The notes: generated from the sequence alone by a model not told the origin. DNA of 48,010 nucleotides from Ignavibacteriales bacterium (GCA_016207415.1 JACQPT010000061.1:1-48010), one strand, 5' to 3'. Numbered from the stretch's first letter, positions 1-26,789 are shown. A program made the numbers and translations.

Positions 1-2
1 CA

Positions 3-869
3 CTCAACATAGTGACAACACGCGGTTGCCCTTTCCATTGCAATTGGTGTGCAAAACCCATCTATGGGCAGGTTTATCATAGCCGCAGTCCTGAGAATGT
101 GGCCGAGGAAATGGCTTACTTAAGGGAGTTTGTGAAACTTGATCATATTTGGTTCGCAGACGACATTTTTGGACTCAGGCCAGGCTGGACAACAGACTTC
201 GATGAAGTGGTAAACAAGCGAAAAGTCAAGACGCCGTTCAAATGCCTTTCCCGTGTCGACCTTTTGTTAAAGGAAGACAACATTCGGCACCTCAAGAACT
301 CCGGCTGCCAAACCGTATGGGTAGGGGCCGAGTCCGGTTCGCAGAAGATTCTCGACGCCATGGAAAAAGGGACGACCGTCATGCAGATTTATGAAGCCAC
401 GGCGTTGCTGCACTGTGCTGGTATCCGTGTAGGTTTTTTCCTGCAGTTTGGTTATCCCGGTGAAACCAAAACGGATATCGAAAAAACATTGCAAGTGGTC
501 AAGGACTGCAGGCCGGATGAAATAGGTGTATCGGTGTCGTATCCTCTTCCGGGAACAAAATTCCACGAGAGTGTTAAGGCGCAGCTTGGAGAAAAACAAA
601 ACTGGGTTGACAGTCAGGACCTGGAAATGATGTTTGCGGGAGCTTATCAACCGGACTTTTATCGTGTGCTGCACCGCGTTGTTCACAAGAAGTTCAGCTT
701 GTGGAGAGGAATACGAGCGGCGACTGGACTTTTCCAACAACCCTTACGATTTGAGAAAAGGTCACTGCGTTCTATCGCCTCGATGTTCTACCACGGGGTG
801 ACACTTCCCCTCGATCTGCTGAAACTGGAAAAACTCGAACACCTGCCGTCTTCGCATGTCCCCCATTGA
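3..869 (+). CDS. Cobalamin-type radical SAM protein, C-terminal part (5' end outside window)
   Basis: The reading frame is open from the first bases of the window, so the N-terminus, where a B12-binding domain normally sits in this family, is missing; a GTG at 12 is unlikely to be the true start. The visible 288 residues begin with the radical SAM cluster motif C-X3-C-X2-C (GCPFHCNWC), followed by a family-typical strand reading HIWFADDIFG and the segment VWVGAESGS that often contacts SAM in this group. The radical SAM barrel occupies about the first 200 residues, followed by a basic helical tail. The stop overlaps the next gene by 14 bases, which suggests translational coupling. Related proteins perform methylations, ring contractions or other radical chemistry on lipids, pigments and antibiotics. 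Substrate and exact reaction cannot be told. Confidence 0.85.
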   Translation, partial: LNIVTTRGCPFHCNWCAKPIYGQVYHSRSPENVAEEMAYLREFVKLDHIWFADDIFGLRPGWTTDFDEVVNKRKVKTPFKCLSRVDLLLKEDNIRHLKNSGCQTVWVGAESGSQKILDAMEKGTTVMQIYEATALLHCAGIRVGFFLQFGYPGETKTDIEKTLQVVKDCRPDEIGVSVSYPLPGTKFHESVKAQLGEKQNWVDSQDLEMMFAGAYQPDFYRVLHRVVHKKFSLWRGIRAATGLFQQPLRFEKRSLRSIASMFYHGVTLPLDLLKLEKLEHLPSSHVPH

Positions 870-1671
870 TGAGCTCCAACGAGCCAGTGTTGAAAAGGCG
901 TTCGATAGTGTCGCGGAGACATTCGAGCGCACGCTCGAAAATGACGCAACGCGACAGTTTCGGAACGAGGTCTACGCAGAAATTGAAACACTGGTTCCCC
1001 GGGGATCATCCGTCCTTGACATCAACTGTGGGATCGGTGTTGACGCCCTCACATTGGCCGAGAAGGGATTCAATGTTGTTGGTGTCGACATCGCGGCGAA
1101 GATGATCGAGGTTGCAAGACAAAGGTCCACAAAACTGAGATTCAACACAGCCGAGTTCCTCGTTGGAAGCTTTGAAGACCTCAGCGGGCTTTCCGGTTGT
1201 ACCTTCGATTTGGTGCTCTCAAATTTTGGAGGTCTGAATTGCGTTCCATCGCTCCAAATCGCGGGTGCGCAGATTGCGGCTATAACACGACAGTCGGGGT
1301 TCTTTATCGCCACAGTCATGCCCCCTTTGTGCTTGTGGGAAGTTTTGGCGGGGATGGCGCGGATGGATTTCAAATCGGCGTTTCGACGGCTGCACACGAG
1401 TGTAATGGCCACGGGATTTCCGGGCGGAACATTTGCCGTCTCCTACTACTCGCCGCACAAGTTCGCCGCCACCATGCGTCAATGGTTCGAAGTCAAGCTG
1501 ATCCGGGGATTCAATGTATTCTCGCCACCGCCACATGCAACGCGATTCCGCACAAGTCATCCCCTCTTCTCCCAATTTCTCGCCGACATCGACAAAAGGG
1601 CAGCGCGCCTTCCACTTGCTCGTTCGATGGGAGACCACTACCTGATGGTTCTCAAGCGGAGGGATCAATGA
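856..1671 (+). CDS. Class I SAM-dependent methyltransferase
   Basis: This 271-residue protein has the Rossmann-fold methyltransferase signature: motif I VLDINCGIGVDA near residues 53-64 (Asn and Ile stand where Gly and Thr are usual in LDxGCGTG) and the acidic end of strand 2 in VVGVDIA near 74-80. The later motif FDLVLSNFGGLN corresponds to post-motif I/II. No membrane segment is visible. The ATG at 856 lies inside the end of the upstream radical SAM gene, and its own TGA overlaps the ATG of the glycosyltransferase at 1668, so it is embedded in a tightly packed operon. It probably methylates a small-molecule or lipid-linked intermediate made by the neighbours. The acceptor and the atom methylated are unknown. 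Confidence 0.85.
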   Translation: MSPIDELQRASVEKAFDSVAETFERTLENDATRQFRNEVYAEIETLVPRGSSVLDINCGIGVDALTLAEKGFNVVGVDIAAKMIEVARQRSTKLRFNTAEFLVGSFEDLSGLSGCTFDLVLSNFGGLNCVPSLQIAGAQIAAITRQSGFFIATVMPPLCLWEVLAGMARMDFKSAFRRLHTSVMATGFPGGTFAVSYYSPHKFAATMRQWFEVKLIRGFNVFSPPPHATRFRTSHPLFSQFLADIDKRAARLPLARSMGDHYLMVLKRRDQ

Positions 1672-2825
1672 CGATCCAACTCATGAGAAACGTCGACCGT
1701 TTTCTGGGAATCCCACTGTGCTGGCTCACTGGAGCTTTTTACAAAACCTTCTTCGTCGACCAGTGGAGACGTGGAGAACAACCCGCAAGGAAGATCCTCA
1801 TCATAAAATTTTTCGGTTTGGGCAGTATAGTCCTGCTTACACCGGCACTCCAAATGATCAAAAAAAGATACCCACACGCGCGGCTCGCTTTCTTATCTTT
1901 TGCCGCAAATTCTGAACTCCTCGATCGAATCGATCTGATAGACGAAATACACACGATTAATACGACTTCAATCATGGCATTTTGTAGAGACACTGTTCGT
2001 TGCTTTCGGAACTTCTTTTGGGTCGGTTTTGACATCGTATTCGATTTTGAGTTTTTTTCGAAATTTTCCACACTTATTACAGCTCTTACGTTTGCATCTT
2101 GCCGTGCGGGATTTTCCCTCCCTACATTCTGGCGCTCATCAATCTATACTCATCAAATACTTCTCGACAAGCGTGTGCACGTAAAGGATTCGTTTTGTCG
2201 GCTTGTGACTACGGTTACTGGTGAGGAAGAGATTCCTGGTGTCTCACCACCAAGGGTCACCCAAAGGGATGATGAATCTCTTGGAAGTAAAGTAGCTTTC
2301 AGCATTCGCCCTGCTGTCGGGATAAACGTCAACACAGGCGCAACATTTCTTGAGCGCCGCTGGGACATACAAAGATTTGCCGACCTGGTGTCAACTTTGT
2401 CTGTGGATGGAGATTACGAATTCTTTTTTACCGGCTCCCTTGAAGAACGACCTTATGTACAAAAGGCAATTAACCTCACTCGGTGCAGGGAGCGATGTCA
2501 CAATGTTGCAGGTCTTCTGACAATCGGTGAATTATGTGCCCTGTTTCGTAGGCTCGAGATTTTTATTTCAAATGACAGCGGTCCTCTCCATCTCGCAGCT
2601 GTTACAGGAGCCCCTACGATTGGTCTCTACGGCCCCGAATCCCCCATATTCTATGGACCTCTTGGTCCAACCGTTGCCGAAATATATGAGAAAGCACCTT
2701 GTAGCCCCTGCATGAACATCTACCGTGCAAAAGCTTTTCGGTGTCCCTTTGATGCCAAGTGTATGAAAATGATAGAAGTGAAACGTATCCAGCAGGCAGT
2801 GGAATCAATGCTTGTCTCCGTATGA
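1668..2825 (+). CDS. Glycosyltransferase family 9 (heptosyltransferase-like)
   Basis: The frame is open far upstream (from 1197), but the ATG at 1668 is chosen because it overlaps the preceding stop as ATGA and gives a typical 385-residue GT9 protein. After a short N-terminal hydrophobic stretch the GT-B fold begins at KILIIKFFGLGSIVLLTP, the family's phosphate-loop-like start. The C-terminal donor-binding domain has the hallmark NDSGPLHLAAVTGAPTIGLY, followed by a cysteine-containing tail (CSPC...CPFDAKC) that is common in the family. GT9 enzymes transfer ADP-activated heptoses or related sugars to the inner core of lipopolysaccharide; in accessory loci they also act on other lipid or glycan acceptors. 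Here it sits among radical SAM and methyltransferase genes rather than LPS core genes, so a non-core acceptor is likely. Confidence 0.88.
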   Translation: MTIQLMRNVDRFLGIPLCWLTGAFYKTFFVDQWRRGEQPARKILIIKFFGLGSIVLLTPALQMIKKRYPHARLAFLSFAANSELLDRIDLIDEIHTINTTSIMAFCRDTVRCFRNFFWVGFDIVFDFEFFSKFSTLITALTFASCRAGFSLPTFWRSSIYTHQILLDKRVHVKDSFCRLVTTVTGEEEIPGVSPPRVTQRDDESLGSKVAFSIRPAVGINVNTGATFLERRWDIQRFADLVSTLSVDGDYEFFFTGSLEERPYVQKAINLTRCRERCHNVAGLLTIGELCALFRRLEIFISNDSGPLHLAAVTGAPTIGLYGPESPIFYGPLGPTVAEIYEKAPCSPCMNIYRAKAFRCPFDAKCMKMIEVKRIQQAVESMLVSV

Positions 2826-4054
2826 TGCAAAAATGGAAGTATCTGCTTTTCGGCTTGCTGTGTGTGTACCTTCTTTGGCGTGGCATTATCCCCGGCTTCA
2901 CAAAAATCGATTCCGACTTCCCAAACTATTACGTTTCGTCAAAACTGCTGATCGACGGAGGCGGGACAGACTCTCTTTACGAAGATAAATGGTTCCAAAA
3001 ACAAATAGATGCACAAGGTATGCATCAAGAAGGAAAATTCTCCCCCTTTCCGCCTCCGACAGTCTTTCTCTTCATTCCGTTCGCGTGGCTGCCGCCGTTA
3101 GCAGCCCTTCAAGTCTGGACTGTTATCAACATATTGCTGCTTGCCGTTTCGATATGGCTCATCTCACAGATAACGCGCTGGGACTGGATTTGGAGTTCTT
3201 GCTTTCTCTTAGGAAGCGGACACGCCATCATTAATAACTTTCGACTCGGACAGTTTTATCTCGTGATTACCTTCTTGACGCTGGCAGCATATGTCCTTAC
3301 GAGCAAAGAAAGAAACTTTCTGGCCGGGTTCCTGCTTGGTATCGGAGCTGCTTTCAAATACTTCCCCGCGATATTTTTGCCCGCTTACAAAGAAGGGCGT
3401 TACAGGAACGCCATTATAGCATGCGTTATTTCCATTGTCGCCGTCTACTTGCTCAGTATTGCCATCCTCGGAGCGAGCGTTCATCAACAGTTTTTTTCTT
3501 CTGTCTTTGTCCATCATCTATCAGGCGACATTCAGAACCCATTCAGCTTTGTTTTTCAATCCTGGAATGGTTTGTTGAATCGCTTTTTCGTTTTTGATTC
3601 TCAGCTTAATCCCTCTCCAATGATTGATGCGCCTCTCTTTTCAAAACTGATTCTGTATGTGATTTATGGAACTGTTGCCTTGTCCACAGTGTATGCATTT
3701 TTTAAATTGAGGGACGCAGCACATATTGATGAGTTTGCTGCTGAGTTTGCTCTTTTGGGTATAACTGCACTGACGCTTTTACCTGCTTCCGCAACATACC
3801 ACTACTTATTGCTTGCACTCCCTGTGGCATTGCTGCTGACTATCTCGACACCCTGGAGCTTTGAGCAAAAAGCCATCCTGACCCTTTATTTTCTTATCGG
3901 TTTCATTCCGTACGGATTGCTCGGAGAATTCGAAACAAGGGGCTTGTTGGCCGTCCTTGCATTTCCTCGATTATTGTGCATGACCTTGATTTTCTTTTTC
4001 TCCATTAAGTTCATATATGGACTTAAAGTGAAAAAGGTTGTTGAGCCACCATGA
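2822..4054 (+). CDS. GT87-like (DUF2029) polytopic glycosyltransferase
   Basis: A 410-residue, strongly hydrophobic protein with roughly ten or more membrane segments. The start is taken at ATG 2822 (a second ATG follows at 2825), which overlaps the preceding stop; the frame is open further upstream but reads as the end of the GT9 gene. The first periplasmic loop carries IDSDFPNYYVSSKLL near residues 29-43. In GT-C enzymes such as mycobacterial PimE (GT87) an Asp in this loop is the catalytic base, and Asp32 is the obvious candidate here. Enzymes of this class use polyprenyl-phosphate sugars, usually mannose, and glycosylate acceptors on the outer face of the inner membrane. It ends in an ATGA overlap with the next gene, so it belongs to the same operon. 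Confidence 0.8.
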   Translation: MMQKWKYLLFGLLCVYLLWRGIIPGFTKIDSDFPNYYVSSKLLIDGGGTDSLYEDKWFQKQIDAQGMHQEGKFSPFPPPTVFLFIPFAWLPPLAALQVWTVINILLLAVSIWLISQITRWDWIWSSCFLLGSGHAIINNFRLGQFYLVITFLTLAAYVLTSKERNFLAGFLLGIGAAFKYFPAIFLPAYKEGRYRNAIIACVISIVAVYLLSIAILGASVHQQFFSSVFVHHLSGDIQNPFSFVFQSWNGLLNRFFVFDSQLNPSPMIDAPLFSKLILYVIYGTVALSTVYAFFKLRDAAHIDEFAAEFALLGITALTLLPASATYHYLLLALPVALLLTISTPWSFEQKAILTLYFLIGFIPYGLLGEFETRGLLAVLAFPRLLCMTLIFFFSIKFIYGLKVKKVVEPP

Positions 4055-5520
4055 TTGCACTCATTAATCCGACTGCCGCAAATTGGCGTTTCCGAATCCC
4101 GCTTTCGGTGCTTTCACTTGGTGGATCACTCGAAGGCAGTTATGCTTATGAAATCGTCGATGGAAACATCCGGAGGAATCTCCTTGAAACGCTTCCAACG
4201 TTCATTCAAGAGAAAGGCATCAAGTACGTTGGCCTCACCGTTATGCCTGGCCCTCAACTTGTGCAGGCGATACACTTGTCCAAATTGGTGCGTGCACGCT
4301 TTCCAAATGTCAAAATTATCTGGGGCGGATATTTCCCATCACTTCATTCCAGAACCGTTCTTCAATCAGGATACGTTGATTTCGTCATTAGCGGACAGGG
4401 GGAGTTCGCCTTCAAACAGCTGATTGACTCTTGTGAACGTGGAGGCTCCTTAAGCTCTATTAGCGGGCTGTCGTACAAAAATGGAGAAATCCGAAATAAT
4501 TCGAAACAAGATCTTATCGACCCTAACGAGCTTCCTCCTCTTCCCTATTCGAAAGTTTCAATTCCGATGTACGTCGGGCGCACGTTTCTCGGAAGCCGCA
4601 CAATCAATTATCACTCGAGCGTAGGCTGCCCTTTTCTGTGCGGGTTTTGTGCTGTGGCGGCAATTTACAAAGCGCGCTGGCTGGGTTTAACTGCAGAAAG
4701 AATGACCAGCGACCTTCTCTGGTTCAAGAAACACTATGCTGTCAATGCGGTGGAGTTCCACGATAATAACTTCTTCACCTCTGAGAAAAGGGTTTTTGAA
4801 TTTGCCGACCGGATCAAACGAGAGGACATATCTTGGTGGGGCGAGGCTCGTCCCGATACTACGCTGGATTATGATGAAAAAACATGGCGCTTGATGAAAA
4901 AGGCAGGCTTGAAAATGGTGTTCTTTGGGGCCGAATCAAGTTCCGAAAGTGTCCTCCAGTTGATGCACAAAGGAGGCACACAAACCCCGGACACCGTACT
5001 CACCTTAGCGGAAAAAATGAGGGAGGCGGATATTATTCCTGAGTTTTCTTTTGTTCTCGGTAATCCGACGGGCAATGTTACAAATGACGTCGATAAGGAC
5101 ATTCGATTCATCAAACAGGTCAAAAAGATAAACCCTCGGGCTGAAATTATTATCTACACGTACTCACCCGTTTTTTTTGAGGAAGCAGAACTATTCCATG
5201 TTGCTCAAACAAACGGATTTGCTTATCCCGAGAAGCTTGATGACTGGCTAAAACCTGAGTGGCAACGCCATGACCTTCGTAAAAACCCCGTAACCCCGTG
5301 GCTAACAGCGAATCACCATAGGCTCATTAAGGGTTTTGAAAGAGTCCTCAACGCCCGCTATCCCACCGTCTCCGACCTTAAGCTCTCAGGCCTCCAACGG
5401 ACAGTTCTGCAAATGTTTGGTTCGTGGCGGTACAAATTTTCGCTTTACGCCTTCCCTTATGAACTTGCTGCTCTACAGAAGTTTTTTCGCTATCGGCAGC
5501 CAGAAATCGAAGGATTATGA
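4051..5520 (+). CDS. B12-binding-type radical SAM protein
   Basis: A full-length 489-residue protein with the usual two-part layout. Residues 1 to about 150 form a cobalamin-binding-like Rossmann domain with the GG of IIWGGYFPS near 89-97 and the ISGQGE segment near 113-118 typical of the family. No clear DXHXXG cobalamin-ligand motif is seen, as in many members. The radical SAM domain starts at the cluster motif C193-X3-C197-X2-C200 (CPFLCGFC) and includes FFGAESSSE. The C-terminal region of about 100 residues is helical and basic. It overlaps the upstream gene by ATGA and is followed four bases later by a methyltransferase, repeating the radical SAM plus methyltransferase pairing seen at the left edge. 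Candidate reactions are C-methylation or rearrangement of an unreactive carbon; the substrate is unknown. Confidence 0.87.
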   Translation: MIALINPTAANWRFRIPLSVLSLGGSLEGSYAYEIVDGNIRRNLLETLPTFIQEKGIKYVGLTVMPGPQLVQAIHLSKLVRARFPNVKIIWGGYFPSLHSRTVLQSGYVDFVISGQGEFAFKQLIDSCERGGSLSSISGLSYKNGEIRNNSKQDLIDPNELPPLPYSKVSIPMYVGRTFLGSRTINYHSSVGCPFLCGFCAVAAIYKARWLGLTAERMTSDLLWFKKHYAVNAVEFHDNNFFTSEKRVFEFADRIKREDISWWGEARPDTTLDYDEKTWRLMKKAGLKMVFFGAESSSESVLQLMHKGGTQTPDTVLTLAEKMREADIIPEFSFVLGNPTGNVTNDVDKDIRFIKQVKKINPRAEIIIYTYSPVFFEEAELFHVAQTNGFAYPEKLDDWLKPEWQRHDLRKNPVTPWLTANHHRLIKGFERVLNARYPTVSDLKLSGLQRTVLQMFGSWRYKFSLYAFPYELAALQKFFRYRQPEIEGL

Positions 5521-5524
5521 AGTA

Positions 5525-6262
5525 ATGGGCCTTTTGAATCTCTTTCGCATCAGAAAACCTGTCGTCCTTGATCCGCTCGAGGCGTACGAGATCTGGGCTG
5601 AAACGTACGATAATATGGATGATAACGCGCTCATAGCAGCTGAAGCCACGGCTGTCAAATCGATGTTGCCGAAACTGAAGCTCAAAGGAAAACGTATCCT
5701 CGATGCCGGTTGCGGCACAGGCAGGTATCTTCAAATCCTAAAAAACTACCGCCCTCGACTCCTCACTGGGATCGACTTTTCCCAGGCGATGATTGTAAAA
5801 GCAAACAGAAAATTTGCAAACGACCGATTTGTCCACCTCGATGTCTCGTCAATTGAATCGCTGCCTTTCCGATCTGACTTTTTTGACACGCTTCTCTGCA
5901 CATTGGCGCTGGACCATGTCAGGAATCTGCATGCCGGCGTCAAAGAACTTTCGCGGGTTCTCCGGAAAGGGGGAACCGCCATCATTTCCGTTTTTCATCC
6001 ATACGCACACTTGCTGGGCTGGCAACGGACCTTCGCTACAAACAACGGAAATCGAAAACTCTATGCCGTTCGGTATTTCAGCCATCAAGCTTCAGAATAC
6101 TTTAAAGCTATCAAAGACGCAAAATTCGAAATCGAAGAACTTTTTGAGCCCACCATCGATGAAGAAGTCAAACCGTTTTTCGTAAAGGCCGGGAGATTAG
6201 ACCTTTATGAAAAATTCAACAACGCCCCTCTGCTGCTTGTTTTCAGATTGAGCAAGAAATGA
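5525..6262 (+). CDS. Class I SAM-dependent methyltransferase
   Basis: The open frame extends upstream to 5336 but that part overlaps the radical SAM gene; the ATG at 5525, four bases after the upstream stop, gives a 245-residue protein. It has a textbook Methyltransf_11 profile: motif I ILDAGCGTGRYL, the strand-2 segment LTGIDFSQAMI, motif II DTLLCTLALDHV and motif III LRKGGTAIISVFHP. An N-terminal segment containing YEIWAETYDNM resembles UbiE/biotin-type methyltransferase starts. The TGA overlaps the ATG of the amidohydrolase (ATGA). It may methylate the product of the neighbouring radical SAM protein. It is distinct in sequence from the methyltransferase at 856, so it is not a simple tandem duplicate. 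Confidence 0.88.
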   Translation: MGLLNLFRIRKPVVLDPLEAYEIWAETYDNMDDNALIAAEATAVKSMLPKLKLKGKRILDAGCGTGRYLQILKNYRPRLLTGIDFSQAMIVKANRKFANDRFVHLDVSSIESLPFRSDFFDTLLCTLALDHVRNLHAGVKELSRVLRKGGTAIISVFHPYAHLLGWQRTFATNNGNRKLYAVRYFSHQASEYFKAIKDAKFEIEELFEPTIDEEVKPFFVKAGRLDLYEKFNNAPLLLVFRLSKK

Positions 6263-7443
6263 ACAGTGGTTATTTGTTGAGAAACGGGACTGTGGTCGGT
6301 GATGAGAAGTGGTTCCCGGCTGACGTCCGCATCCTTGGATGTACCATAGTTGAAATAGGTTCTGGACTGAAGAAGAAAAAGACAGAAACCGAAATTGATT
6401 GTTCCAGATATCTGATCTTCCCGGGCCTCATCAACTCACATGACCACCTCGAATTCAATCTTTTTCCGCGGCTCGGTGAACCTCCGTATCGTAACGCGTA
6501 CGAATGGGGCAATGATCTCCATAGGCGATGGAAACCGGCCATAGAGGCAGTCCAGAAGATTCCGTTGAAGCAACGATTATGGTGGGGGTCGTGGAAGAAC
6601 CTGTTCTCCGGCGTTACAACCGTTGTGCATCACAACCAATACTACAGCAAGTTCCGCGCGCGGTACCCCCTCTCTGTGCTGAGAGACTATTCATTTGCAC
6701 ATTCGCTGCAATTTGACTCCAATATTCATGCTGCTCTCAAAAAGCGCAGGAAAGGAACTCCGTTCATCATTCATCTGGCCGAGGGGATAGACAAGACCGC
6801 GCAGGAGGAGGTGTCTGCATTACAAAACCTCGGCGGACTCGACGAGAGGACAATTGCAGTCCATTGTGTCGGTCTCAAACGCGGCGATGTCGAAACAATA
6901 CGCGAAAAAAAAGCTTCGGTCGTTTGGTGTCCTTCATCAAACATGTACCTTTTTGGTAAAACCGCACGGATTCAGGAATTGCTGCAAGGGGTGCCGGTTG
7001 CCATCGGAACAGACTCCACGCTTACTGGGAGCGTAACGCTCTTTGATGAATTACGTCTTGCAAAAACTGAATCTCGGCTTTCTCCCCAACAACTCTTCAA
7101 GCTTGTAACAGATGCTCCACGCAACATTTTTAATCTTCCTTTTCATGCGGGAAGAATTATAGGAAGAGGAGTGGCGGATTTATTTCTTATTAGCGCTAAT
7201 GGCAAAGATCCTTATGAAAGCCTCTTACAGGCCGAGCCATCCGATATTGCGTTGCTATTCCAGAAAGGTCAGGTGAGGATTTTTGAATCACAGTTAATAG
7301 ATCCACGTCGTCAACGTTACCATCAGAGGATAACGATCATGGGCCGCCAGAAGCTTATCAACGATTCAGAATTTCCGCGTTTCTATAAGACACTCAAACC
7401 GTTCCTCTCGCATTATACCTATTTGAAATCAGATCGCACGTGA
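6259..7443 (+). CDS. Amidohydrolase-superfamily metal-dependent hydrolase/deaminase
   Basis: A 394-residue protein of the cytosine deaminase / chlorohydrolase branch (COG0402-like). The short N-terminal beta-sandwich leads into FPGLINSHDHLEF, giving the metal ligands His61 and His63. Further ligands follow in the usual order: His172 in IHLAE (with Glu175), His202 in VHCVG and Asp252 in IGTDS, so the active site is complete. Family members hydrolyse amide, amine or halide bonds on small cyclic or N-containing substrates such as guanine, cytosine and S-adenosylhomocysteine. In this operon, next to two methyltransferases and radical SAM proteins, it could trim or deaminate the intermediate, or recycle a SAM by-product. 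The operon continues after a 56-base gap. Confidence 0.85.
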   Translation: MNSGYLLRNGTVVGDEKWFPADVRILGCTIVEIGSGLKKKKTETEIDCSRYLIFPGLINSHDHLEFNLFPRLGEPPYRNAYEWGNDLHRRWKPAIEAVQKIPLKQRLWWGSWKNLFSGVTTVVHHNQYYSKFRARYPLSVLRDYSFAHSLQFDSNIHAALKKRRKGTPFIIHLAEGIDKTAQEEVSALQNLGGLDERTIAVHCVGLKRGDVETIREKKASVVWCPSSNMYLFGKTARIQELLQGVPVAIGTDSTLTGSVTLFDELRLAKTESRLSPQQLFKLVTDAPRNIFNLPFHAGRIIGRGVADLFLISANGKDPYESLLQAEPSDIALLFQKGQVRIFESQLIDPRRQRYHQRITIMGRQKLINDSEFPRFYKTLKPFLSHYTYLKSDRT

Positions 7444-7499
7444 CGCAATTCCCGTATTCTACCGATTTCGCAGGGGCGTACGCATAGCGTCGGACTATT

Positions 7500-8921
7500 A
7501 TGCGATATAAGTGCGCTTTCCCATTGGTTGTATCGATTATTGGCGGAATGCCTCTGCTGAGTAGCTGTGAGAACGGCTTGACGGAAGCTTCGGATTCTTC
7601 TCTTCAACCGAAGGTTGTTTCCTTCGTCGTACAAAACTCTCCCAACAATACGCTCAGTATCATGGCACTTACCAACACGGCGAACGCCTCGCGGGTCAGA
7701 GTGGAATTCGGGATCGATTCGGCGTTGAACGAGACGACGCCTTCCGCCTCCGTACATTCAAATAATGCCATTCTCCCTCTTTTGGGGCTGGTCGCTGAGA
7801 CAAAGTACTTTACCAGGGCCGTTGCAATATCGTCCGATGGCCAGGAAGGTGTATCAGAGATTATAAGCTTTGTTACAGAGACGCCGCCAACGGACATCCC
7901 AAGACTCCTTTTAAGCAACGTGGATGATCCGACGCCCGGATATGTCATGATGGGGTTTTCACGATTCAATTTGATCCAGCCGTTTCATACTTATGTGGGG
8001 ATTTTCAATATCGAAGGAAAACTTGTTTGGTACAGGAGGTTTGAAGGCTCTGTCATTGATATTCAAAAACAGCCGAATAATAACTATACTGTATGCGTGG
8101 CTCCTGCTCCGTTTCAGGCTGCGTTCTATGAACTCGACAATCTTGGGAATGTTCTTCGCACTTACAAAGCTGGCGCGAACAGAGAGACAGATACTCATGA
8201 ATTACGCCTCATTGGTGGCTCTCACGTTTTGTTTGGCCTTGAATACCGTACTATGGACCTTTCCGAATTTACCGGGAAGACAAACGCAATCGTTAAGGGC
8301 TTTCTCATCGAATACTACAGACCGAGAAGATCTCCATTCATTTGGAAAACGTTCGACTATTTGAGTGTAACTGATGCAGTTGTGAACGTCTCATTGACGG
8401 GAAATAATGTCGATCCCTGGCACGGGAATGCGATCGAGATCGATACGGATGATAATTTTCTTGTGTCCTTTCGGCACACCGAAGAGGTCATTAAGATACA
8501 CTCCGTGACCGGGAACATCATATGGCGGCTTGGGGGGAAGAACAACCAATTTCAGTTCATCAATGATCCATGGAATGGGTATTCCCATCAACACGGAATC
8601 CGGCGGCTCGAAAACGGAAATATCATCTTGTTTGACAATGGCAATAATCATCAACCCCGCGAAAGTCGTGCCGTGGAATACCATCTTGATGAGCAAAGCA
8701 AAAAAGCGACTCTCGTATGGGAGTATCGCTCTACGCCGCCACTGTTTTCGTTTGCACTTGGGTTTTCCCAAAGACTTCGCAATGGCAACACGTTTATCAC
8801 GTACGGGAGCATTCCGAGATTCATTGAAGTAGATGCCAGCGGAAAAAAACGCTGGGAAGCTACCTTGGACACCACAGGCCTGTTTGTCTACAGGGCTTTC
8901 CGAATCGATTCCCTGTATTGA
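7500..8921 (+). CDS. Arylsulfotransferase-like (ASST) lipoprotein
   Basis: A 473-residue exported protein. The N-terminus has a basic start, a hydrophobic core and the lipobox L20-S-S-C23, so it is probably a lipoprotein processed at Cys23. Residues about 35-130 form a beta-rich fibronectin-like domain. The rest matches the six-bladed propeller of Arylsulfotransf_2/ASST with repeated G-x-W blade ends. Counterparts of the E. coli AssT active-site residues can be placed: His233 (DTHEL), His308 (PWHGN), Arg325 (SFRH) and His365 (HQHG). AssT transfers sulfate between phenolic donors and acceptors in the periplasm without PAPS. Many relatives have unproven activity, so sulfotransfer is inferred. 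No clear ribosome binding site precedes the ATG. Confidence 0.8.
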   Translation: MRYKCAFPLVVSIIGGMPLLSSCENGLTEASDSSLQPKVVSFVVQNSPNNTLSIMALTNTANASRVRVEFGIDSALNETTPSASVHSNNAILPLLGLVAETKYFTRAVAISSDGQEGVSEIISFVTETPPTDIPRLLLSNVDDPTPGYVMMGFSRFNLIQPFHTYVGIFNIEGKLVWYRRFEGSVIDIQKQPNNNYTVCVAPAPFQAAFYELDNLGNVLRTYKAGANRETDTHELRLIGGSHVLFGLEYRTMDLSEFTGKTNAIVKGFLIEYYRPRRSPFIWKTFDYLSVTDAVVNVSLTGNNVDPWHGNAIEIDTDDNFLVSFRHTEEVIKIHSVTGNIIWRLGGKNNQFQFINDPWNGYSHQHGIRRLENGNIILFDNGNNHQPRESRAVEYHLDEQSKKATLVWEYRSTPPLFSFALGFSQRLRNGNTFITYGSIPRFIEVDASGKKRWEATLDTTGLFVYRAFRIDSLY

Positions 8922-8922
8922 T

Positions 8923-9954
8923 GTGAACCCCGCGGCCGCTCTTAATACGGTAACAACCCGCAGCTTCACCCTCCCGATTGCAATCCTCTATGTCACGGCT
9001 GGATGCAACCTCAAATGTGTCATGTGTTCCTATCGAGCCCCGCTGCCGCAAGAACTGACCCTCGATGAAATAAGAAAACTCGCCGATGAGCTCTATCATC
9101 TCGGGCTTCGTCATATCGTTTACTCAGGGGGCGAGCCGCTTACACGCAGGGACTTCCCCTCCATCTGTGACGTGTTCAAAGCGCTTGGTGTCAAGCAATC
9201 GCTGCTGACGAATGGTCTCCTGCTACTTAAGCGTTACGACGAAATCCGCCATTACTTTTCGGAGATCATTGTTTCGGTCGACGGCCACAATGCAGAAGTG
9301 CATAACAGTATCCGCGGGATGGACGCCTTTGATCAGATTGTGAAGGGTCTAAGAGCTGTCGTCTCCTCCAACCCCCGTCCAACGATATCCTTGAGAACAG
9401 TCGTCCAACGGAAAAATTTTCAGTGGATCGGCGAGATGGTCAATTTCGCCAAATCGCTGGGGGTCGATCGTATCTCCTTCCTTGCAGCTGATGTGTTATC
9501 CGACAGTTTTCATCGGGATCAATCCAAGGCCGTCGCCGACAAGAGTGAAATCATCCTTTCTTTCGATGAGACATTGGAGTTTCGCGGTTTGATGGAAACG
9601 TTTATAACAGACCACCATTCTGAAATCAGAAGTGGGTTTGTTTCAGAGACGCCGGAAAAACTCTTTCACATTGTGCAGTACTACGAGGCGTTGACAAGCA
9701 GATCAAATTTCCCACGTAATCTGTGCAATGCACCAATGGTCTCTACTGTCATCACCTCGACCGGCGATCTGTTACCGTGTTATTTCCTGGCCAAAGTGGG
9801 CAATGTTCGCACGACAAAAATTGAAGAGCTCCTGAACACTCATGCCTTTCGACAGGTTCGACGAGATGTAGACTCATATGTTCTCGATAGATGTCAGCAA
9901 TGCGTCTGCACCCTCCATATCAGTCCGCTTTCGGCGTTTCTGGATAGATTCTAG
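8923..9954 (+). CDS. Radical SAM protein with SPASM/twitch-like C-terminus
   Basis: An in-frame ATG at 8833 would overlap the upstream gene by 89 bases; the GTG at 8923, just after its stop, is preferred and gives 343 residues beginning close to the first core strand. The cluster motif is C28-X3-C32-X2-C35 (CNLKCVMC). It is followed by YSGGEPL (SAM-binding GGE motif), LTNG and VSVDG, all standard for the MoaA/PqqE/NifB group. The C-terminus has cysteines in LCNAP, LLPCYF and DRCQQCVC, a pattern consistent with one auxiliary Fe-S cluster of twitch or SPASM type. Such enzymes modify peptides, nucleosides or lipids; no short precursor peptide gene is visible nearby, which argues mildly against a RiPP. 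The downstream GT87-like gene starts five bases after the stop. Confidence 0.85.
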   Translation: MNPAAALNTVTTRSFTLPIAILYVTAGCNLKCVMCSYRAPLPQELTLDEIRKLADELYHLGLRHIVYSGGEPLTRRDFPSICDVFKALGVKQSLLTNGLLLLKRYDEIRHYFSEIIVSVDGHNAEVHNSIRGMDAFDQIVKGLRAVVSSNPRPTISLRTVVQRKNFQWIGEMVNFAKSLGVDRISFLAADVLSDSFHRDQSKAVADKSEIILSFDETLEFRGLMETFITDHHSEIRSGFVSETPEKLFHIVQYYEALTSRSNFPRNLCNAPMVSTVITSTGDLLPCYFLAKVGNVRTTKIEELLNTHAFRQVRRDVDSYVLDRCQQCVCTLHISPLSAFLDRF

Positions 9955-9959
9955 CGCCC

Positions 9960-11252
9960 ATGCTAGGACCGGGCATTTCACCTTTATCCGACGGGAAGCA
10001 CACACAGCCAGTTGACCATCGAACGAGGCTGCGTCGAATTCTTCTCGTCATCACTTGTGTGTTTTCCGTGACTTTTTTTCTCGTGCATGGTGGCCGATAC
10101 GTTAGCAGGCTTACAAGCGGATTCGCGGCTTATTACGGTTTCTCCAAAATGCTCCTGGACGGATTACCACTCAGTAATGCCTACGCTTATGAATATTTCA
10201 ACGCACAACTGAGGGAATACGGGTTTACTGGAATCTGGGATATAGAATATAACCTGCCATCAAACTCTTTGCCGTTTTTGCCGTTTGCTTTCCTTTCACC
10301 CCACGCATCAAAAATTGCATGGACCGTAGCTTCTCTGATACTGTATTTGTTGTCGGTGAGAATGCTGTTATTGATTCATGGAATCGAGTGGTGGAGTAAC
10401 TTGGGTTTGTCGGTCATTGCCCTGGCGGCTCTTTGGCGGCCATCATACCATTGCATAGCTCACGGCCAGATGTATTTCCTCGTTCTTTTCTTGTTCACAT
10501 TGGCTTTACGGGGGCTCGTAAGGAAAAGGGTATCCCTCGTTTCAATCCCTCTTGCCTCTGCATTTTTTGCGAAAGGTTATGGCGTTATCAGCATCCTTTG
10601 GCTGATGTTCAATGGAAGAACAAGGATGATGCTCACAACAATCCTGATTGTCGTCGCCGCTATGGTCGTCACGCTTCCGATCATACACTTGGATGCGTGG
10701 GTCACATATTGGAATACAGTGGCGAGTGATTTCGGCTCCCTGGCGAAGAGCGGACGCGTTGCCTACCAGACATTAACCAGCTTGATTCTGCACTTGTTTT
10801 CATACGACTCCCGTTGGCTACCTTCACCCCTGATTGAGCTTCCAACGCACCTGGTGAGATTACTCATTTTCTTAACAAACGTAGGCCTGACAGTTTTTGC
10901 CTTGACCGCCGCACGCTCTAATAACTCATCACTGCTGCCAATCTCCTTCTCAATCGGCATTGCGATAAACGTTGTCACAGCTCCAATGGCAGAGGAATAC
11001 CATTTCGTGCTTGTTCTCCCATTGGCAATTTCCTTTTTATGTTACTTCTTCTCTGAAGAGAACAGCATTGCGAATCTCGATCTTTGGAAAATTATCGTGA
11101 TCGTCTCGATAATCGTTCTTGCGGTGCCAATCGGATACAAGTCATTGCAGGATTCAAGCTTCCCCCTTTATCTGATGGCATACCCAAAACTTTATGCTGC
11201 TCTTTTGCTCATCGTCGGTTCTCTTTTTGCAACAAGGAAAACAAAAACATGA
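9960..11252 (+). CDS. Second GT87-like polytopic membrane protein, catalytic Asp apparently missing
   Basis: A 430-residue protein with about ten hydrophobic segments, organised like the protein at 2822 and with the same family landmarks. These include the first-loop segment SGFAAYYGFSKMLLDG near residues 53-68, a mid-protein KGYG where the paralogue has KYFP, and a late AEEYHF segment where the paralogue has ATYHYL. The paralogue's loop reads SDFPNYY; here Gly54 replaces the Asp expected to be the catalytic base. It may therefore be a non-catalytic partner, may use another acidic residue, or may have a different role such as flipping. It is the last gene of the accessory operon. The start ATG at 9960 is five bases after the preceding stop. 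Confidence 0.75.
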   Translation: MLGPGISPLSDGKHTQPVDHRTRLRRILLVITCVFSVTFFLVHGGRYVSRLTSGFAAYYGFSKMLLDGLPLSNAYAYEYFNAQLREYGFTGIWDIEYNLPSNSLPFLPFAFLSPHASKIAWTVASLILYLLSVRMLLLIHGIEWWSNLGLSVIALAALWRPSYHCIAHGQMYFLVLFLFTLALRGLVRKRVSLVSIPLASAFFAKGYGVISILWLMFNGRTRMMLTTILIVVAAMVVTLPIIHLDAWVTYWNTVASDFGSLAKSGRVAYQTLTSLILHLFSYDSRWLPSPLIELPTHLVRLLIFLTNVGLTVFALTAARSNNSSLLPISFSIGIAINVVTAPMAEEYHFVLVLPLAISFLCYFFSEENSIANLDLWKIIVIVSIIVLAVPIGYKSLQDSSFPLYLMAYPKLYAALLLIVGSLFATRKTKT

Positions 11253-11455: not shown

Positions 11456-11872
11456 ATGAGCAAAACATACGCCGAACTTGCAAGAGCGGCGCAAAAAGCG
11501 AAAACGTTTGCTCATGCTCCCTACTCAAAATTCCGTGTCGGCGCCGCACTCCTCACAAAAAACGGCAAGGTCTTCACCGGCTGTAATGTCGAGAACAGTT
11601 CCTACAGCCTGACTATTTGCGCTGAGCGGACGGCGATCTTCAAGGCTATTTCAGAAGGCCATCATCGGTTCAAAGCAATAGCCGTTTCATCGGATGACTC
11701 CGGGTTCACTCCTCCCTGTGGAGCTTGCAGGCAAGTCCTCATCGATCTTGCTGGGAACATCGATTTTATCATGGTCAACGCAAAGCAGCAAATGAAAGTC
11801 GTACCTCTTAAGATTCTGCTTCCTTTCGCATTTACTAGCAAGAATCTTCGGCGCTCAAAGAAAAAGAAATAA
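11456..11872 (+). CDS. cdd: Cytidine deaminase
   Basis: A 138-residue protein of the homotetrameric, one-zinc cytidine deaminase type. The zinc and catalytic motifs are C55-A-E57 (Glu57 the proton shuttle) and P-C88-G-A-C91. The substrate-binding segment GCNVENSSY and the start YSKFRVGAALL are also diagnostic. It converts cytidine and deoxycytidine to uridine and deoxyuridine in the cytoplasm. A lysine-rich tail ends the protein. The ATG lacks an obvious Shine-Dalgarno sequence and overlaps the stop of a six-codon open frame. It is followed three bases later by the thymidine kinase gene, and the operon continues with a nucleoside transporter and a phosphorylase, which fits pyrimidine and purine salvage. 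Confidence 0.95.
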   Translation: MSKTYAELARAAQKAKTFAHAPYSKFRVGAALLTKNGKVFTGCNVENSSYSLTICAERTAIFKAISEGHHRFKAIAVSSDDSGFTPPCGACRQVLIDLAGNIDFIMVNAKQQMKVVPLKILLPFAFTSKNLRRSKKKK

Positions 11873-11875
11873 CAC

Positions 11876-12451
11876 ATGGATACATCGGCTTCCCATAGCA
11901 TCCCTCGTGATGTCGGCTGGATCGAGGTTGTGTGCGGCTGCATGTTCAGCGGCAAAACTGAGGAACTCATACGCCGGCTCCGAAGGGCGCAAATTGCAAA
12001 ACAAAAAGTCGCCATTTTTAAGCCGCGCATCGACAAGCGCTACAGTGCCGAACATATCGTATCGCACAGCGACCAATCCCTCGTTTCCACTGTTGTTGAC
12101 GATGCAACGGAAATCTCGAGGCTCGCGGGAGACGCCCAGGTCATCGGCATTGACGAAGGGCAGTTTTTCAAAGCAAATCTCGTGGATGTTTGTGAATCTC
12201 TTGCAAATCAAGGAAAGCGAGTAATTGTTGCCGGCCTGGACCAGGACTATCGTGGAAAACCCTTCGAGCCGATGCCGCAACTTCTGGCCATCGCCGAATA
12301 CATCACCAAAACTCTCGCTATTTGCGTCGTCTGCGGAAATCCAGCAGACAGAACGCAACGCACAACAATCTCAAGTGAACGCGTCGTTGTGGGGGCAAAA
12401 GACATGTATGAAGCACGCTGCCGGCGCTGTCATCAACCCCTGCATGACTAG
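11876..12451 (+). CDS. tdk: Thymidine kinase (type II)
   Basis: A 191-residue cytoplasmic kinase phosphorylating thymidine to dTMP. The P-loop is G21-CMFSGK-T28 and the catalytic Glu94 lies in IDEGQFF. The zinc-binding lasso is made by C150-X2-C153 (CVVC) and C182-X2-C185 (CRRC), as in bacterial and human TK1-type enzymes. Length is normal for the family. It begins three bases after cdd, so the two are almost certainly co-transcribed. No sign of truncation or unusual composition. Confidence 0.96.
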
Positions 12452-12485
12452 TGTCGATTCTCATTTTCTTCGCAGGACTTGAATC

Positions 12486-13844
12486 ATGACTATTCTCTCT
12501 CTGCTCCAGGGCATTCTCGGTATTGTCGTTCTGTTGGGGATTGCATTTTTGTTTTCCAACAATAAACGAAGAATTAATTGGCGGCTTGTTGGAACGGGCC
12601 TTGCCATTCAAGTCACATTCGGAACACTCGTGATCAAAGGGCATGAGATGGGAGCCGTCTTTTCTCCTCTCGGCTGGCCTAAAGCGCTGTTCGAAAAAAT
12701 TGCGGAAGGATTTGTGGTCATCCTGGGATTTACGACGGACGGAGCCAGGTTCGTCTTCGGCAGCCTCGCAAACAGCCCGGGCAATGAGGGTTCGCTGGGG
12801 TTTTTCTTTGCGTTCCAGGTTTTGCCCACAATTATCTTTTTTTCCTCGCTCATGTCCGTGCTCTATTATCTGGGTGTCATGCAAAAAGTTGTCCAGGGAA
12901 TGGCATGGGTAATGGCGAGATTGATGGGAACCAGCGGGGCCGAATCGCTTTCAAACACAGCGAACATCTTCGTAGGCCAAACGGAAGCGCCTTTGATGAT
13001 TCGTCCGTTTGTCGGCACCATGACAAACTCTGAACTCCTGACCATCATGGTTGGCGGGATGGCGACCATTGCAGGAGGTGTCATGGCGGCGTATGTCCAA
13101 ATGCTTGGTTCTGCCTTCGCTCAGGCACACAGCCTTGGGATTCAAGCCGCTCAGGTGAAGTTTGCAGCTCAACTGCTTGGAGCGAGCATCATGGCTGCTC
13201 CCGCCGCGCTGTTGATCTCAAAGATCATTTTTCCGGAAACCGAAGAACCGGTCACCAAGGGAACGGTAAAAGTAAAGGTGGAAAAAAACGCAACGAACGT
13301 GATCGAGGCGGCTGCCGCTGGAGCCGGTGACGGGCTCCATTTGGCCCTCAACGTCGGAGCCATGCTCCTGGCCTTCATTGCAATGATTAGCCTAGTCAAT
13401 TATCTCTTGAACGCACTTGGCGACATTGCCGGGATTAACTCTTATCTCCAGGCAAATTTCGGCCAGCCGTTGAACCTTCAGGTTATCCTTGGAACATCGC
13501 TCCAGTATTTGGCGCTCGCTATCGGCGTGCCTTCTTCCGAGATTTTCCAATTTGGAAGCCTCTTGGGGACGAAGATTGTGCTGAATGAATTTGTCGCTTA
13601 TCTCGACATGGCTAAACTCATTACCGAGAACAAGCTCGTTTCCGAAAAAGCAATTGCGATGGCCAGCTTCGCACTTTGCGGGTTTGCGAATTTTTCCTCC
13701 ATTGCAATCCAAATCGGCGGAATCAGCCCTATGGCGCCCCACCGTCGAAAGGACCTGGCCGCTCTCGGATTAAGGGCTGTCCTTGGTGGAGCGCTCGCTA
13801 CACTGCTGACCGCCACAATCGCCGGCATCCTTATTGGCGGATGA
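12486..13844 (+). CDS. nupC: Concentrative nucleoside transporter (CNT/NupC family)
   Basis: A 452-residue inner-membrane protein with the three-part CNT layout: an N-terminal helix pair with a polar NNKRRINW turn, the gate/nucleoside recognition domain, and a C-terminal domain. The conserved VGQTEAPLMIRPF segment carries the glutamate that binds ribose and cation in this family, and LGTSLQYLALAIGVPSSEIFQFGSLLG lies in the second repeat (named here only by its first and last parts: LGTSLQYL and FQFGSLLG). CNT proteins import nucleosides using a sodium or proton gradient. A lysine-rich insert (KVKVEKNA) sits in the cytoplasmic loop. Its place between thymidine kinase and purine nucleoside phosphorylase supports uptake plus salvage of external nucleosides. 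Confidence 0.93.
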   Translation: MTILSLLQGILGIVVLLGIAFLFSNNKRRINWRLVGTGLAIQVTFGTLVIKGHEMGAVFSPLGWPKALFEKIAEGFVVILGFTTDGARFVFGSLANSPGNEGSLGFFFAFQVLPTIIFFSSLMSVLYYLGVMQKVVQGMAWVMARLMGTSGAESLSNTANIFVGQTEAPLMIRPFVGTMTNSELLTIMVGGMATIAGGVMAAYVQMLGSAFAQAHSLGIQAAQVKFAAQLLGASIMAAPAALLISKIIFPETEEPVTKGTVKVKVEKNATNVIEAAAAGAGDGLHLALNVGAMLLAFIAMISLVNYLLNALGDIAGINSYLQANFGQPLNLQVILGTSLQYLALAIGVPSSEIFQFGSLLGTKIVLNEFVAYLDMAKLITENKLVSEKAIAMASFALCGFANFSSIAIQIGGISPMAPHRRKDLAALGLRAVLGGALATLLTATIAGILIGG

Positions 13845-13860
13845 GGAAGGGTAAACATTC

Positions 13861-14730
13861 TTGGATGGACGCTCGTTTCAGGAATCCGTCGACTTCATCA
13901 GGTCGAGGTACCAACACCGTCCGGCTGTCGCGTTAATCCTTGGCTCGGGTTTGGGCGATTTTGCCGAGACGCTCAAAACTGAAAGTATCATTCAAGCAGC
14001 TGAGATTCCTTACTATCCTGTCTCCACTGTGCAGGGCCATGCCGGAAGGCTTGTGTTCGGCCAAATAATCCGGGGTCGTAAGTCTTCTCAACGCCTCTTG
14101 GTTTTTCAGGGTCGTGTTCACTTCTACGAGTCGGGCATCCTCGATTCCGTCGTTTACCCTGTTTTGCTCGCTCACAAACTCGGAGCACGAGTTCTCCTTG
14201 TGACGAATGCCGCTGGCGGGATCAATTCGCGTTTTCGTGCGGGCGACTTGATGCTTCTCCGAGACGTGCTGAGTTTCGCCTTTCTACCGCCCTCTCGCTC
14301 AATCAGGAAATCTGGACGTTCAGGAGCAACTAGATCGAGGATCGACGGGAGAACTTTCACACGTTCGTTTGTCAGCGGGGGCGGCTATTTCGACCTGAGG
14401 CTTCAGCGTATCATCCGCTCCGCGGCAAGGAAAGTCTCACTCTCGCTTCAGGAGGGAACATATTGTTGGCTGAGGGGACCGACATACGAAACCGCCGCGG
14501 AAATACGCATGCTCGGCATTCTCGGGGCTGACGCAGTGGGAATGTCCACGGTTCCGGAAATTATCACGGCGAAGCGGCTTGGAATGCGGGTAGCGGCCAT
14601 CTCGCTTATTTCAAATCTTGCCACAGGAATATCGCACCAAAAACTTTCCCACGAAGAGGTAACAGAGACTGGGAACCAGGTGAAGGAAAGTTTTTCAAAT
14701 CTTCTGCAGGAAGTTCTGTTCCGCCTGTAA
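13861..14730 (+). CDS. punA: Purine nucleoside phosphorylase (trimeric PNP type)
   Basis: A 289-residue protein that phosphorolytically cleaves purine (deoxy)nucleosides. Only a TTG at 13861 is available as a start: an in-frame stop lies at 13852 and the nearby ATG at 13865 is in another frame. An AGGAAGGG ribosome binding site about ten bases upstream supports it. Diagnostic segments are the phosphate-binding ILGSGLGD, STVQGHAGRL, FQGRVHFYE, TNAAGGIN, RGPTYET and the base-binding SNLATG, whose Asn favours 6-oxopurines. It is the last gene of the salvage operon and converges on the DUF420 gene with only six bases between the stops. Confidence 0.94.
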   Translation: MDGRSFQESVDFIRSRYQHRPAVALILGSGLGDFAETLKTESIIQAAEIPYYPVSTVQGHAGRLVFGQIIRGRKSSQRLLVFQGRVHFYESGILDSVVYPVLLAHKLGARVLLVTNAAGGINSRFRAGDLMLLRDVLSFAFLPPSRSIRKSGRSGATRSRIDGRTFTRSFVSGGGYFDLRLQRIIRSAARKVSLSLQEGTYCWLRGPTYETAAEIRMLGILGADAVGMSTVPEIITAKRLGMRVAAISLISNLATGISHQKLSHEEVTETGNQVKESFSNLLQEVLFRL

Positions 14731-25055: not shown

Positions 25056-25080
25056 TATACTGACAGGTTCTTCAAGGTTG

Positions 25081-25989
25081 CTAGACGTTAAACCAGGGAG
25101 TGACCCAAACGTATTTCACAGGGTTCATTCCAAGAAATGTGGGTATCAAACGTAGGAGAATCTTCACAAGTAGCCCCATCATCGTCAAAAACAGGAACGA
25201 AACTATCGCGTATCGGACCAGCCCCAGCTTCTTCATGAAGTCTGTATTCCTCTTTCTCAGCCAATACAGGGGTCCAAGCGAGTAGAAGCCAAAGACGCAC
25301 ACCGCGCCAAAAATGAAAGCGGCCGGGTTCAATGAACCGTCCGGCATACGGGTGGCGATATTGAACGGCCACATTTCAGAAAAGTCGACGTTCGTCAAGA
25401 CGGCAACAAAGTGAGGATCCCATTTCTCTCCCGGCATGAAGAAATTCCAGCCCGGACCGCGGAGAAACGTTCCTATAAAAATGAGAAGACACCAGAGAAT
25501 AAGAAAACCAAAAGAAAATACCAGGACTGCGAACTTGCGCTCCTTGAACGTATAATATCCGTTACCCTTCGGGTTGATGTCGATGTATGGAATCGCCATC
25601 AAACCAACGATGATGAGACTCGGCAGCACAACACCGGCAATCCATGGATCGAAGTACACCAGCATTTCCTGCAAACCGAGGAAATACCAGGGGGCTTTCG
25701 AAGGGTTTGGCGTTAGGGCTCTGTTGGCTGGCTCTTCAAGCGGGGCGTCCAGCGTGATCGACCAAATTACCAACACCGCCATTACGGCAATGGTGGCAAG
25801 AAACTCAACGCGCACAAGATACGGCCACACCTGGACTTTGTCGTCCAACGTCGCCTCGACCGGGTATCCCTGCGCATCATTCTTCTTTGCCTTCGTCCAG
25901 GCGAACCAGGTAAAGAAGATGACGGAGAAAAGCAGGAAAACGATCGGAAGATTATCCGGCTTGGTGAGAATCTCGAAGAATTGTTGCAT
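25081..25989 (-). CDS. Cytochrome b C-terminal (subunit IV-like) protein
   Basis: A 302-residue membrane protein, longer than b6f subunit IV (about 160). An N-terminal helix (about 14-32) precedes a soluble stretch and then about six more helices. The quinol-oxidation (Qo) motif region reads NPSKAPWYFLGLQEML, with APWY where mitochondrial and b6f proteins have PEWY; the acidic residue after it is in LQE. The arrangement YFDPWIAGVVLP and ending helix pairs follow this family. With the upstream cytochrome b6-like protein it forms a split cytochrome b carrying the Qo and Qi sites, most likely oxidising menaquinol. Confidence 0.9.
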   Translation of the reverse strand: MQQFFEILTKPDNLPIVFLLFSVIFFTWFAWTKAKKNDAQGYPVEATLDDKVQVWPYLVRVEFLATIAVMAVLVIWSITLDAPLEEPANRALTPNPSKAPWYFLGLQEMLVYFDPWIAGVVLPSLIIVGLMAIPYIDINPKGNGYYTFKERKFAVLVFSFGFLILWCLLIFIGTFLRGPGWNFFMPGEKWDPHFVAVLTNVDFSEMWPFNIATRMPDGSLNPAAFIFGAVCVFGFYSLGPLYWLRKRNTDFMKKLGLVRYAIVSFLFLTMMGLLVKILLRLIPTFLGMNPVKYVWVTPWFNV

Positions 25990-26013
25990 GCAGTGTTTGG
26001 CTGGGGAGCGGTC

Positions 26014-26781: not shown

Positions 26782-26789
26782 ACTGTCTC

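Follow-up and report, generated by a model that had tools for sequence, protein, structure and literature searches.

The ten genes at positions 1–11252 of the window (the whole 48,010-nucleotide stretch of DNA analysed here) are likely to be one allelic form of a hypervariable gene cassette for a cell-surface glycan that carries an undescribed radical SAM/methyltransferase tailoring set, and the glycan is probably a lipid-linked oligosaccharide. The cassette is swappable, is spread over Bacteroidota and Ignavibacteria, and most likely serves to build a surface sugar chain by unusual radical-enzyme chemistry.

Gene content of the window cassette

The window is contig C238 of the Ignavibacteriales bacterium genome G000 (GCA_016207415.1; 2.79 Mb, 253 contigs, estimated to be 89% complete). 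Open reading frames and Pfam searches confirmed the ten packed genes listed in the initial annotation: all but the 5′-cut first gene are intact, and all lie closely packed on the + strand, with matches above the curated Pfam cut-offs for three radical SAM proteins, two methyltransferases, one GT9, two GT87, one amidohydrolase and one arylsulfotransferase (ASST). The first gene, A (3–869), is a second copy cut at its 5′ end (the first ~206 residues are missing) and encodes a BchE/HpnJ-like, B12-binding radical SAM protein; it is followed by B (856–1671), a class I SAM methyltransferase gene usually found immediately 3′ of A, by C (1668–2825; GT9, heptosyltransferase-like), which has an ATGA overlap with B, and by D (2825–4054, start at 2822 or 2825; GT87-type membrane glycosyltransferase). 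E (4051–5520) encodes a B12-binding radical SAM protein of a strongly conserved family, F (5525–6262) a class I SAM methyltransferase that pairs with the deaminase-like amidohydrolase-superfamily protein G (6259–7443), H (7500–8921) an ASST-like lipoprotein that is the sole PF05935 match in the genome, I (8923–9954) a radical SAM/SPASM protein, and J (9960–11252) a second GT87-like membrane protein.

Starts were revised to ATG 1668 for C, to 5525 for F and to GTG 8923 (replacing 8833) for I. The last is the most likely start because homologues of I are 343 aa long and begin there, just after the H stop codon, and the 89 bp overlap of H and I is probably not real. The cassette genes overlap or abut, with the one exception of 56 bp ahead of H, and the GC content of the locus is 47.8% versus 51.9% downstream. 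An Rfam scan of the window gave no match, and promoter and terminator scans were not above shuffled controls. Further along the window, the list of open reading frames includes at 22407–27446 an 882-aa protein with ~8 CxxCH haem motifs beside cytochrome b and Rieske genes, which reads as a bc complex made unusual by its large multihaem cytochrome c.

A fixed slot with variable and exchanged content

Gene A was found in 17 of the 32 genomes of the window's family, E in 10, G in 7 and I in 7. Most of the loci extracted have the arrangement [PASTA-rpe-nagA] NT-A-B-[variable]-[cdd-tdk-(nupC)-pnp], in which NT (a putative nucleotidyltransferase gene), A and B open a cassette bordered by PASTA, rpe, nagA and glnA on the left and by cdd, tdk, (nupC) and pnp on the right; in three genomes (G002, G003 and G007) NT-A-B lies outside the slot. 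In the window, the right flank (11456–14730, + strand) consists of housekeeping genes outside the cassette, named from sequence and recurrence and not from profiles. The variable part is C-D-E-F-G-H-I-J in the window, and elsewhere GT4+GT4, GT9+GT4+GT2(+H), A′+B+GT9+GT87+E+M5, E+F+G+M6+I or GT2+E+M6+H+I.

Composition shifts even within the genus. The locus of G012, a genome of the same genus, lacks C, D, F, G and J and has instead a GT2 and another methyltransferase gene, and the cassette proteins of the two genomes are 47–73% identical, compared with 77–92% for the flanking PASTA, rpe, nagA, cdd, tdk and nupC (64% for pnp). H is also present in G010, with another set of glycosyltransferases and without E, F, G and I. 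In a maximum-likelihood tree of 87 E proteins, the window's E grouped with L012, L013 and L154 (support 100/98), which are from other genera, and not with G012 of its own genus, while the Dyadobacter E fell inside Mucilaginibacter and the Ignavibacteriaceae E among Bacteroidota. The grouping of the window's E with other genera and the position of Dyadobacter within Mucilaginibacter indicate horizontal exchange, and E is patchy across the class (44 of 294 genomes). A fixed chromosomal slot whose glycosyltransferase content is variable and exchanged, together with an exchanged and patchy E, is the pattern of a surface-antigen locus.

The initial annotation had taken the ten genes as a single pathway. 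Close packing and ATGA overlaps would fit one fixed pathway with a single product of its own; however, the ten-gene set was present in no other locus examined, just five of the ten (A, B, E, H and I) are retained in the G012 locus, and F-G, E-M5, GT9-GT87 and H each occur independently of one another. A fixed pathway was rejected on this non-recurrence and is highly improbable. The expected co-occurrence of the ten families in other genomes was seen at the level of modules (E-M5, E-M6-I, A-B-NT and F-G recur) and not for the set as such.

The left part of the locus and a probable duplication of gene A

The left part of the locus, which had been placed beyond the window, lies on a second contig of this genome, C91. 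At its end, C91 carries NT (316 aa; wHTH and MNT-type nucleotidyltransferase), a full-length A (495 aa; radical SAM and B12-binding) and the first codons of a B-like methyltransferase gene. The genes on the far side of NT, as named from sequence, are PASTA, rpe, nagA, one for an Lrp-type regulator, and glnA. Window bases 1–59 are identical to C91 and divergence begins thereafter, with 90.3% nucleotide identity between the two A copies over 723 bp. The G012 assembly also breaks in gene A (C7/C147, 96% nucleotide identity over 380 bp). Copies of A are 90–96% alike within a genome versus 74–75% between genomes, which points to a probable tandem A-B duplication that assembly software would have failed to span. 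Strain variation alone fits worse, and the duplication is preferred due to the 90% (G000) and 96% (G012) identities, the position of both breaks in A, and a following gene that starts differently in C91. Both assemblies thus break at nearly the same spot in A (window 1–869; L149 and L150), with two diverged copies each.

Relatives of the cassette lie among surface-polysaccharide genes

A search of 84,980 species genomes with E gave 541 relatives, the best 80 of which were analysed, 50 with full flanks. Among these 50 full-flank loci (from the best 80 of 541), A and B were each present in 42, NT in 34, I in 30 and M5 or M6 in 37; at least one seed-family glycosyltransferase was present in 42, and an exporter-, ligase-, initiator-, acetyltransferase- or deacetylase-type gene in 32. 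The presence of A within 10 kb of E in 42 of the 50 loci, relative to well under 1 expected by our estimate (one to two genes per ~4-Mb genome), shows that co-location of E and A is far above chance.

In cultured Mucilaginibacter, Dyadobacter and Terrimonas, the module genes lie amid glycosyltransferase genes, and these are joined, depending on the locus, by genes for an ABC exporter, an initiating sugar transferase, a Wzy_C ligase, a deacetylase or an acetyltransferase. A frequent Mucilaginibacter order is (Bac_transf)-ABC exporter-GT4-GT4-(GNAT-deacetylase)-G-F-E-(M6)-I-A-B-NT, continuing with Wzy_C-DUF1972/GT4-more GTs. Module neighbours in Bacteroidota (Bac_transf, Wzy_C, Polysacc_deac, Acetyltransf_9, ABC exporter, Polysacc_synt and several GT4/GT2) indicate a surface-polysaccharide context; a few E loci (L029 and L057) are without glycan neighbours. 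Plasmid searches with H and E returned distant relatives only. In Flavobacteriales (L035, L041, L055, L075 and L085) an ASST-like gene, ~31% identical to H, adjoins E, extending the E-ASST link past the window's family.

The cassette resembles the O-antigen/exopolysaccharide loci of Bacteroidota (Wzx/Wzy or ABC-exporter type) in its fixed site, variable genes, many glycosyltransferases and exchange, and its relatives share with them Bac_transf, Wzy_C, ABC exporter, deacetylase and acetyltransferase genes. The initial annotation had set the locus apart from known O-antigen, LPS-core and named natural product pathways; this separation holds only in part, as the Bacteroidota core lies inside O-antigen/exopolysaccharide-type clusters. 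The window version, in contrast, has no flippase, polymerase or initiator, and the three radical SAM proteins and the nucleotidyltransferase that it carries are without a match among characterised polysaccharide enzymes. The absence from the window cassette of Wzx, Wzy, initiating sugar transferase and nucleotide-sugar synthesis genes counts against a surface glycan. Exporter, polymerase or ligase, and initiator-type genes are present in many homologous Bacteroidota loci. Contig C14 of the same genome carries an MsbA-like ABC exporter, a Wzy_C ligase and two GT9-like genes (one profile-tested). It also counts against a surface glycan that the enzymes are too distant from characterised ones to fix a substrate, and the target of A and E could be a lipid or small molecule that only accompanies glycan genes. 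LpxC (PF03331) had no match in G000 (89% complete) or G012 (97%) and was present in G010, G014, G019 and G158; the window's genus may be without lipid A synthesis, or LpxC may lie in assembly gaps.

The radical SAM proteins and the nucleotidyltransferase

Two of the radical SAM proteins had been described as B12-linked, and this was validated by B12-binding domain (PF02310) scores of 42.5 bits for E (cut-off 32.1) and 36.8 bits for full-length A from C91, with PF04055 also above cut-off in both. The cysteines of CxxxCxxC are nearly invariant in both families, and A and E each combine this [4Fe-4S] motif with an N-terminal B12-binding domain. The E family has a mean column identity of 65% (49 aligned sequences), and the AlphaFold model of E (pLDDT 90.9) matches the folds of MgmA, OxsB, TsrM, CysS and the diol dehydratase AprD4 (E values 1e-18 to 1e-21). 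E shares this predicted fold and CxxxCxxC with these enzymes, but is only 14–19% identical to them and has its own conserved EFHDNNFF, GGTQ and W-rich C-terminus. E is most likely a B12-type, C-methylating enzyme; in AprD4, the same fold is able to work without cobalamin.

The best NCBIfam matches of A were HpnJ (147.9 bits) and BchE, followed at a lower score by the 'lipid biosynthesis' family TIGR04072, which raises the alternative of a pathway dedicated to a membrane lipid (hopanoid-, ladderane- or cyclitol-lipid-like), in which the radical SAM proteins make or alter the lipid and glycosylation of its head group follows. HpnJ, of the HpnI-HpnK-HpnJ route, converts a hopanoid lipid that bears glucosamine into the bacteriohopanetetrol (BHT) cyclitol ether (PMC12583986). 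A has the same B12-binding radical SAM architecture, and as HpnJ works on lipid-borne glucosamine after an N-deacetylase, so Bacteroidota A loci often hold a polysaccharide deacetylase. All scores are, however, far under cut-off (577.6 bits for the HpnJ equivalog TIGR03471), the window cassette has no acyl-, FabF- or isoprenoid-processing genes, and the neighbours are glycan and not hopanoid genes, with the Bacteroidota relatives adjoining polysaccharide genes. No squalene-hopene cyclase (PF13243) match was found in G000 (assembly 89% complete), and on this evidence as a whole a hopanoid pathway was rejected. A lipid pathway is therefore unlikely, and the likeness of A to HpnJ is a lead on mechanism, not membership.

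The three radical SAM and two methyltransferase genes are also typical tailoring content for a self-contained natural product or RiPP that is glycosylated, perhaps sulfated, and secreted; SPASM radical SAM proteins are common in RiPP maturation, and StsB is the best, sub-threshold NCBIfam match of I. The window cassette nevertheless has no PKS or NRPS and varies in gene content in the fashion of a serotype locus, making a small-molecule product quite improbable, and a RiPP was rejected because there is no intergenic room for a precursor peptide ORF.

NT belongs to no Pfam family, and its sequence had no match in the PDB at E≤1. A model from the L012 homologue (pLDDT 90.8) matched mostly MNT/aminoglycoside nucleotidyltransferase folds (MntA, AadA, ANT(4″)), and NT retains their GS...DxD motif, but differs from them in the weakness of the Foldseek matches (best E 2.6e-3) and in its extra N-terminal wHTH.

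The F-G pair, the glycosyltransferases and the ASST-like lipoprotein

In G, the HxH, HxxE, His and Asp set of deaminase-type amidohydrolases (H61, H63, H172, E175, H202 and D252) is nearly invariant among 29 sequences. F and G occur together in 23 of the 26 loci with either gene (best 80 of 541 E relatives), and this near-constant pairing suggests a specific two-step conversion. A different role for gene G only, compatible with a surface glycan, would be that of a by-product scavenger (5′-deoxyadenosine, SAH or MTA deaminase) that eases product inhibition of the radical SAM proteins and methyltransferases and is not a pathway step. G matches 5′-deoxyadenosine deaminase (62 bits) and the MTA/SAH deaminase structure 4f0r, and its conserved catalytic residues are of the deaminase type; however, 8-oxoguanine deaminase scored higher, and G is found in only 24 of the 80 E loci, nearly always with F. 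We consider scavenging by G doubtful, and a coupled step with F remains our preferred reading.

D (~9 TM) is above the Pfam GT87 cut-off and keeps DFxNYY, whereas J (9 TM), also above the cut-off, has Gly at the Asp position of D in all ten sequences (HGF/SGF versus DF) and may be a non-canonical or non-catalytic GT87. C and its homologues have a conserved C-terminal four-Cys motif (C347, C350, C361 and C367), possibly a metal site.

H scored 86.5 and 81.1 bits against PF05935 and PF14269, above both cut-offs, and is marked for export by one N-terminal hydrophobic segment and a lipobox (LSSC) read in the sequence. H233, H308, N310, R325 and H365 are invariant in nine homologues and may correspond to AssT His252, His356, Asn358, Arg374 and His436. 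H is an exported protein, as are AssT/PF05935 proteins and their PF14269 relatives (among them the 'Sulfotransferase' structures 9kf4/9kf6), and keeps His, HxN, Arg and QH motifs that may match those of this group. H differs from classical AssT in being a lipoprotein, and a PDB search gave no detectable match to classical AssT chains. Sulfation by the locus is no more than possible.

A proposed scheme for glycan assembly

The cytoplasmic and periplasmic phases proposed initially agree with the absence of clear membrane topology in A, B, C, E, F, G and I, and with the two 9-TM GT87 proteins and the lipoprotein H, respectively. In the scheme that we infer, for substrates, step order and product alike, NT and A-B would act in the cytoplasm, where they would make or alter an unusual sugar or cyclitol residue borne by a nucleotide or polyprenyl carrier. 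E with a partner methyltransferase, and the SPASM-type I, would introduce further radical modifications (C-methylation most likely in the case of E), F-G would carry out one coupled methylation and deamination or hydrolysis, and C would add a sugar. The lipid-linked product would be flipped by a transporter encoded outside the locus, after which D, and perhaps J, would add sugars from polyprenyl-phosphate donors in the periplasm and H would carry out a group transfer (of sulfuryl, should H be a true ASST). The GT87 and ASST-like periplasmic steps are best read as optional additions to the tailoring set.

Significance

The type of locus is already known, and the radical SAM module inside it is without a curated family or a paper that we could find. 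No NCBIfam cut-off was reached by the ten proteins, NT or M5/M6, and a literature search on radical SAM proteins with polysaccharide, O-antigen, ASST, HpnJ, deaminase and related subjects gave no description of the gene set, in line with the initial view of an undescribed radical SAM/methyltransferase/glycosyltransferase biosynthetic locus. A literature match in Arcobacter butzleri was rejected, as radical SAM and O-antigen sit in unrelated loci there. Tentatively, NT, A and B (with E, M5/M6 and I) may represent a new radical glycan chemistry in Bacteroidota and Ignavibacteria that yields a rearranged (carbocyclic, C-branched or C-methylated) carrier-linked sugar in an exchanged, serotype-like surface polysaccharide.

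The A, E and I families and the Pfam-less NT recur together in many genomes, among them cultured strains of Mucilaginibacter, Dyadobacter and Terrimonas that are probably amenable to laboratory work. If surface glycans are what these proteins act on, they would represent new bacterial polysaccharide chemistry with concrete orthologous enzymes to assay, and the modular exchange is a natural experiment in which matching modules to glycan structures could assign the reaction of each enzyme.
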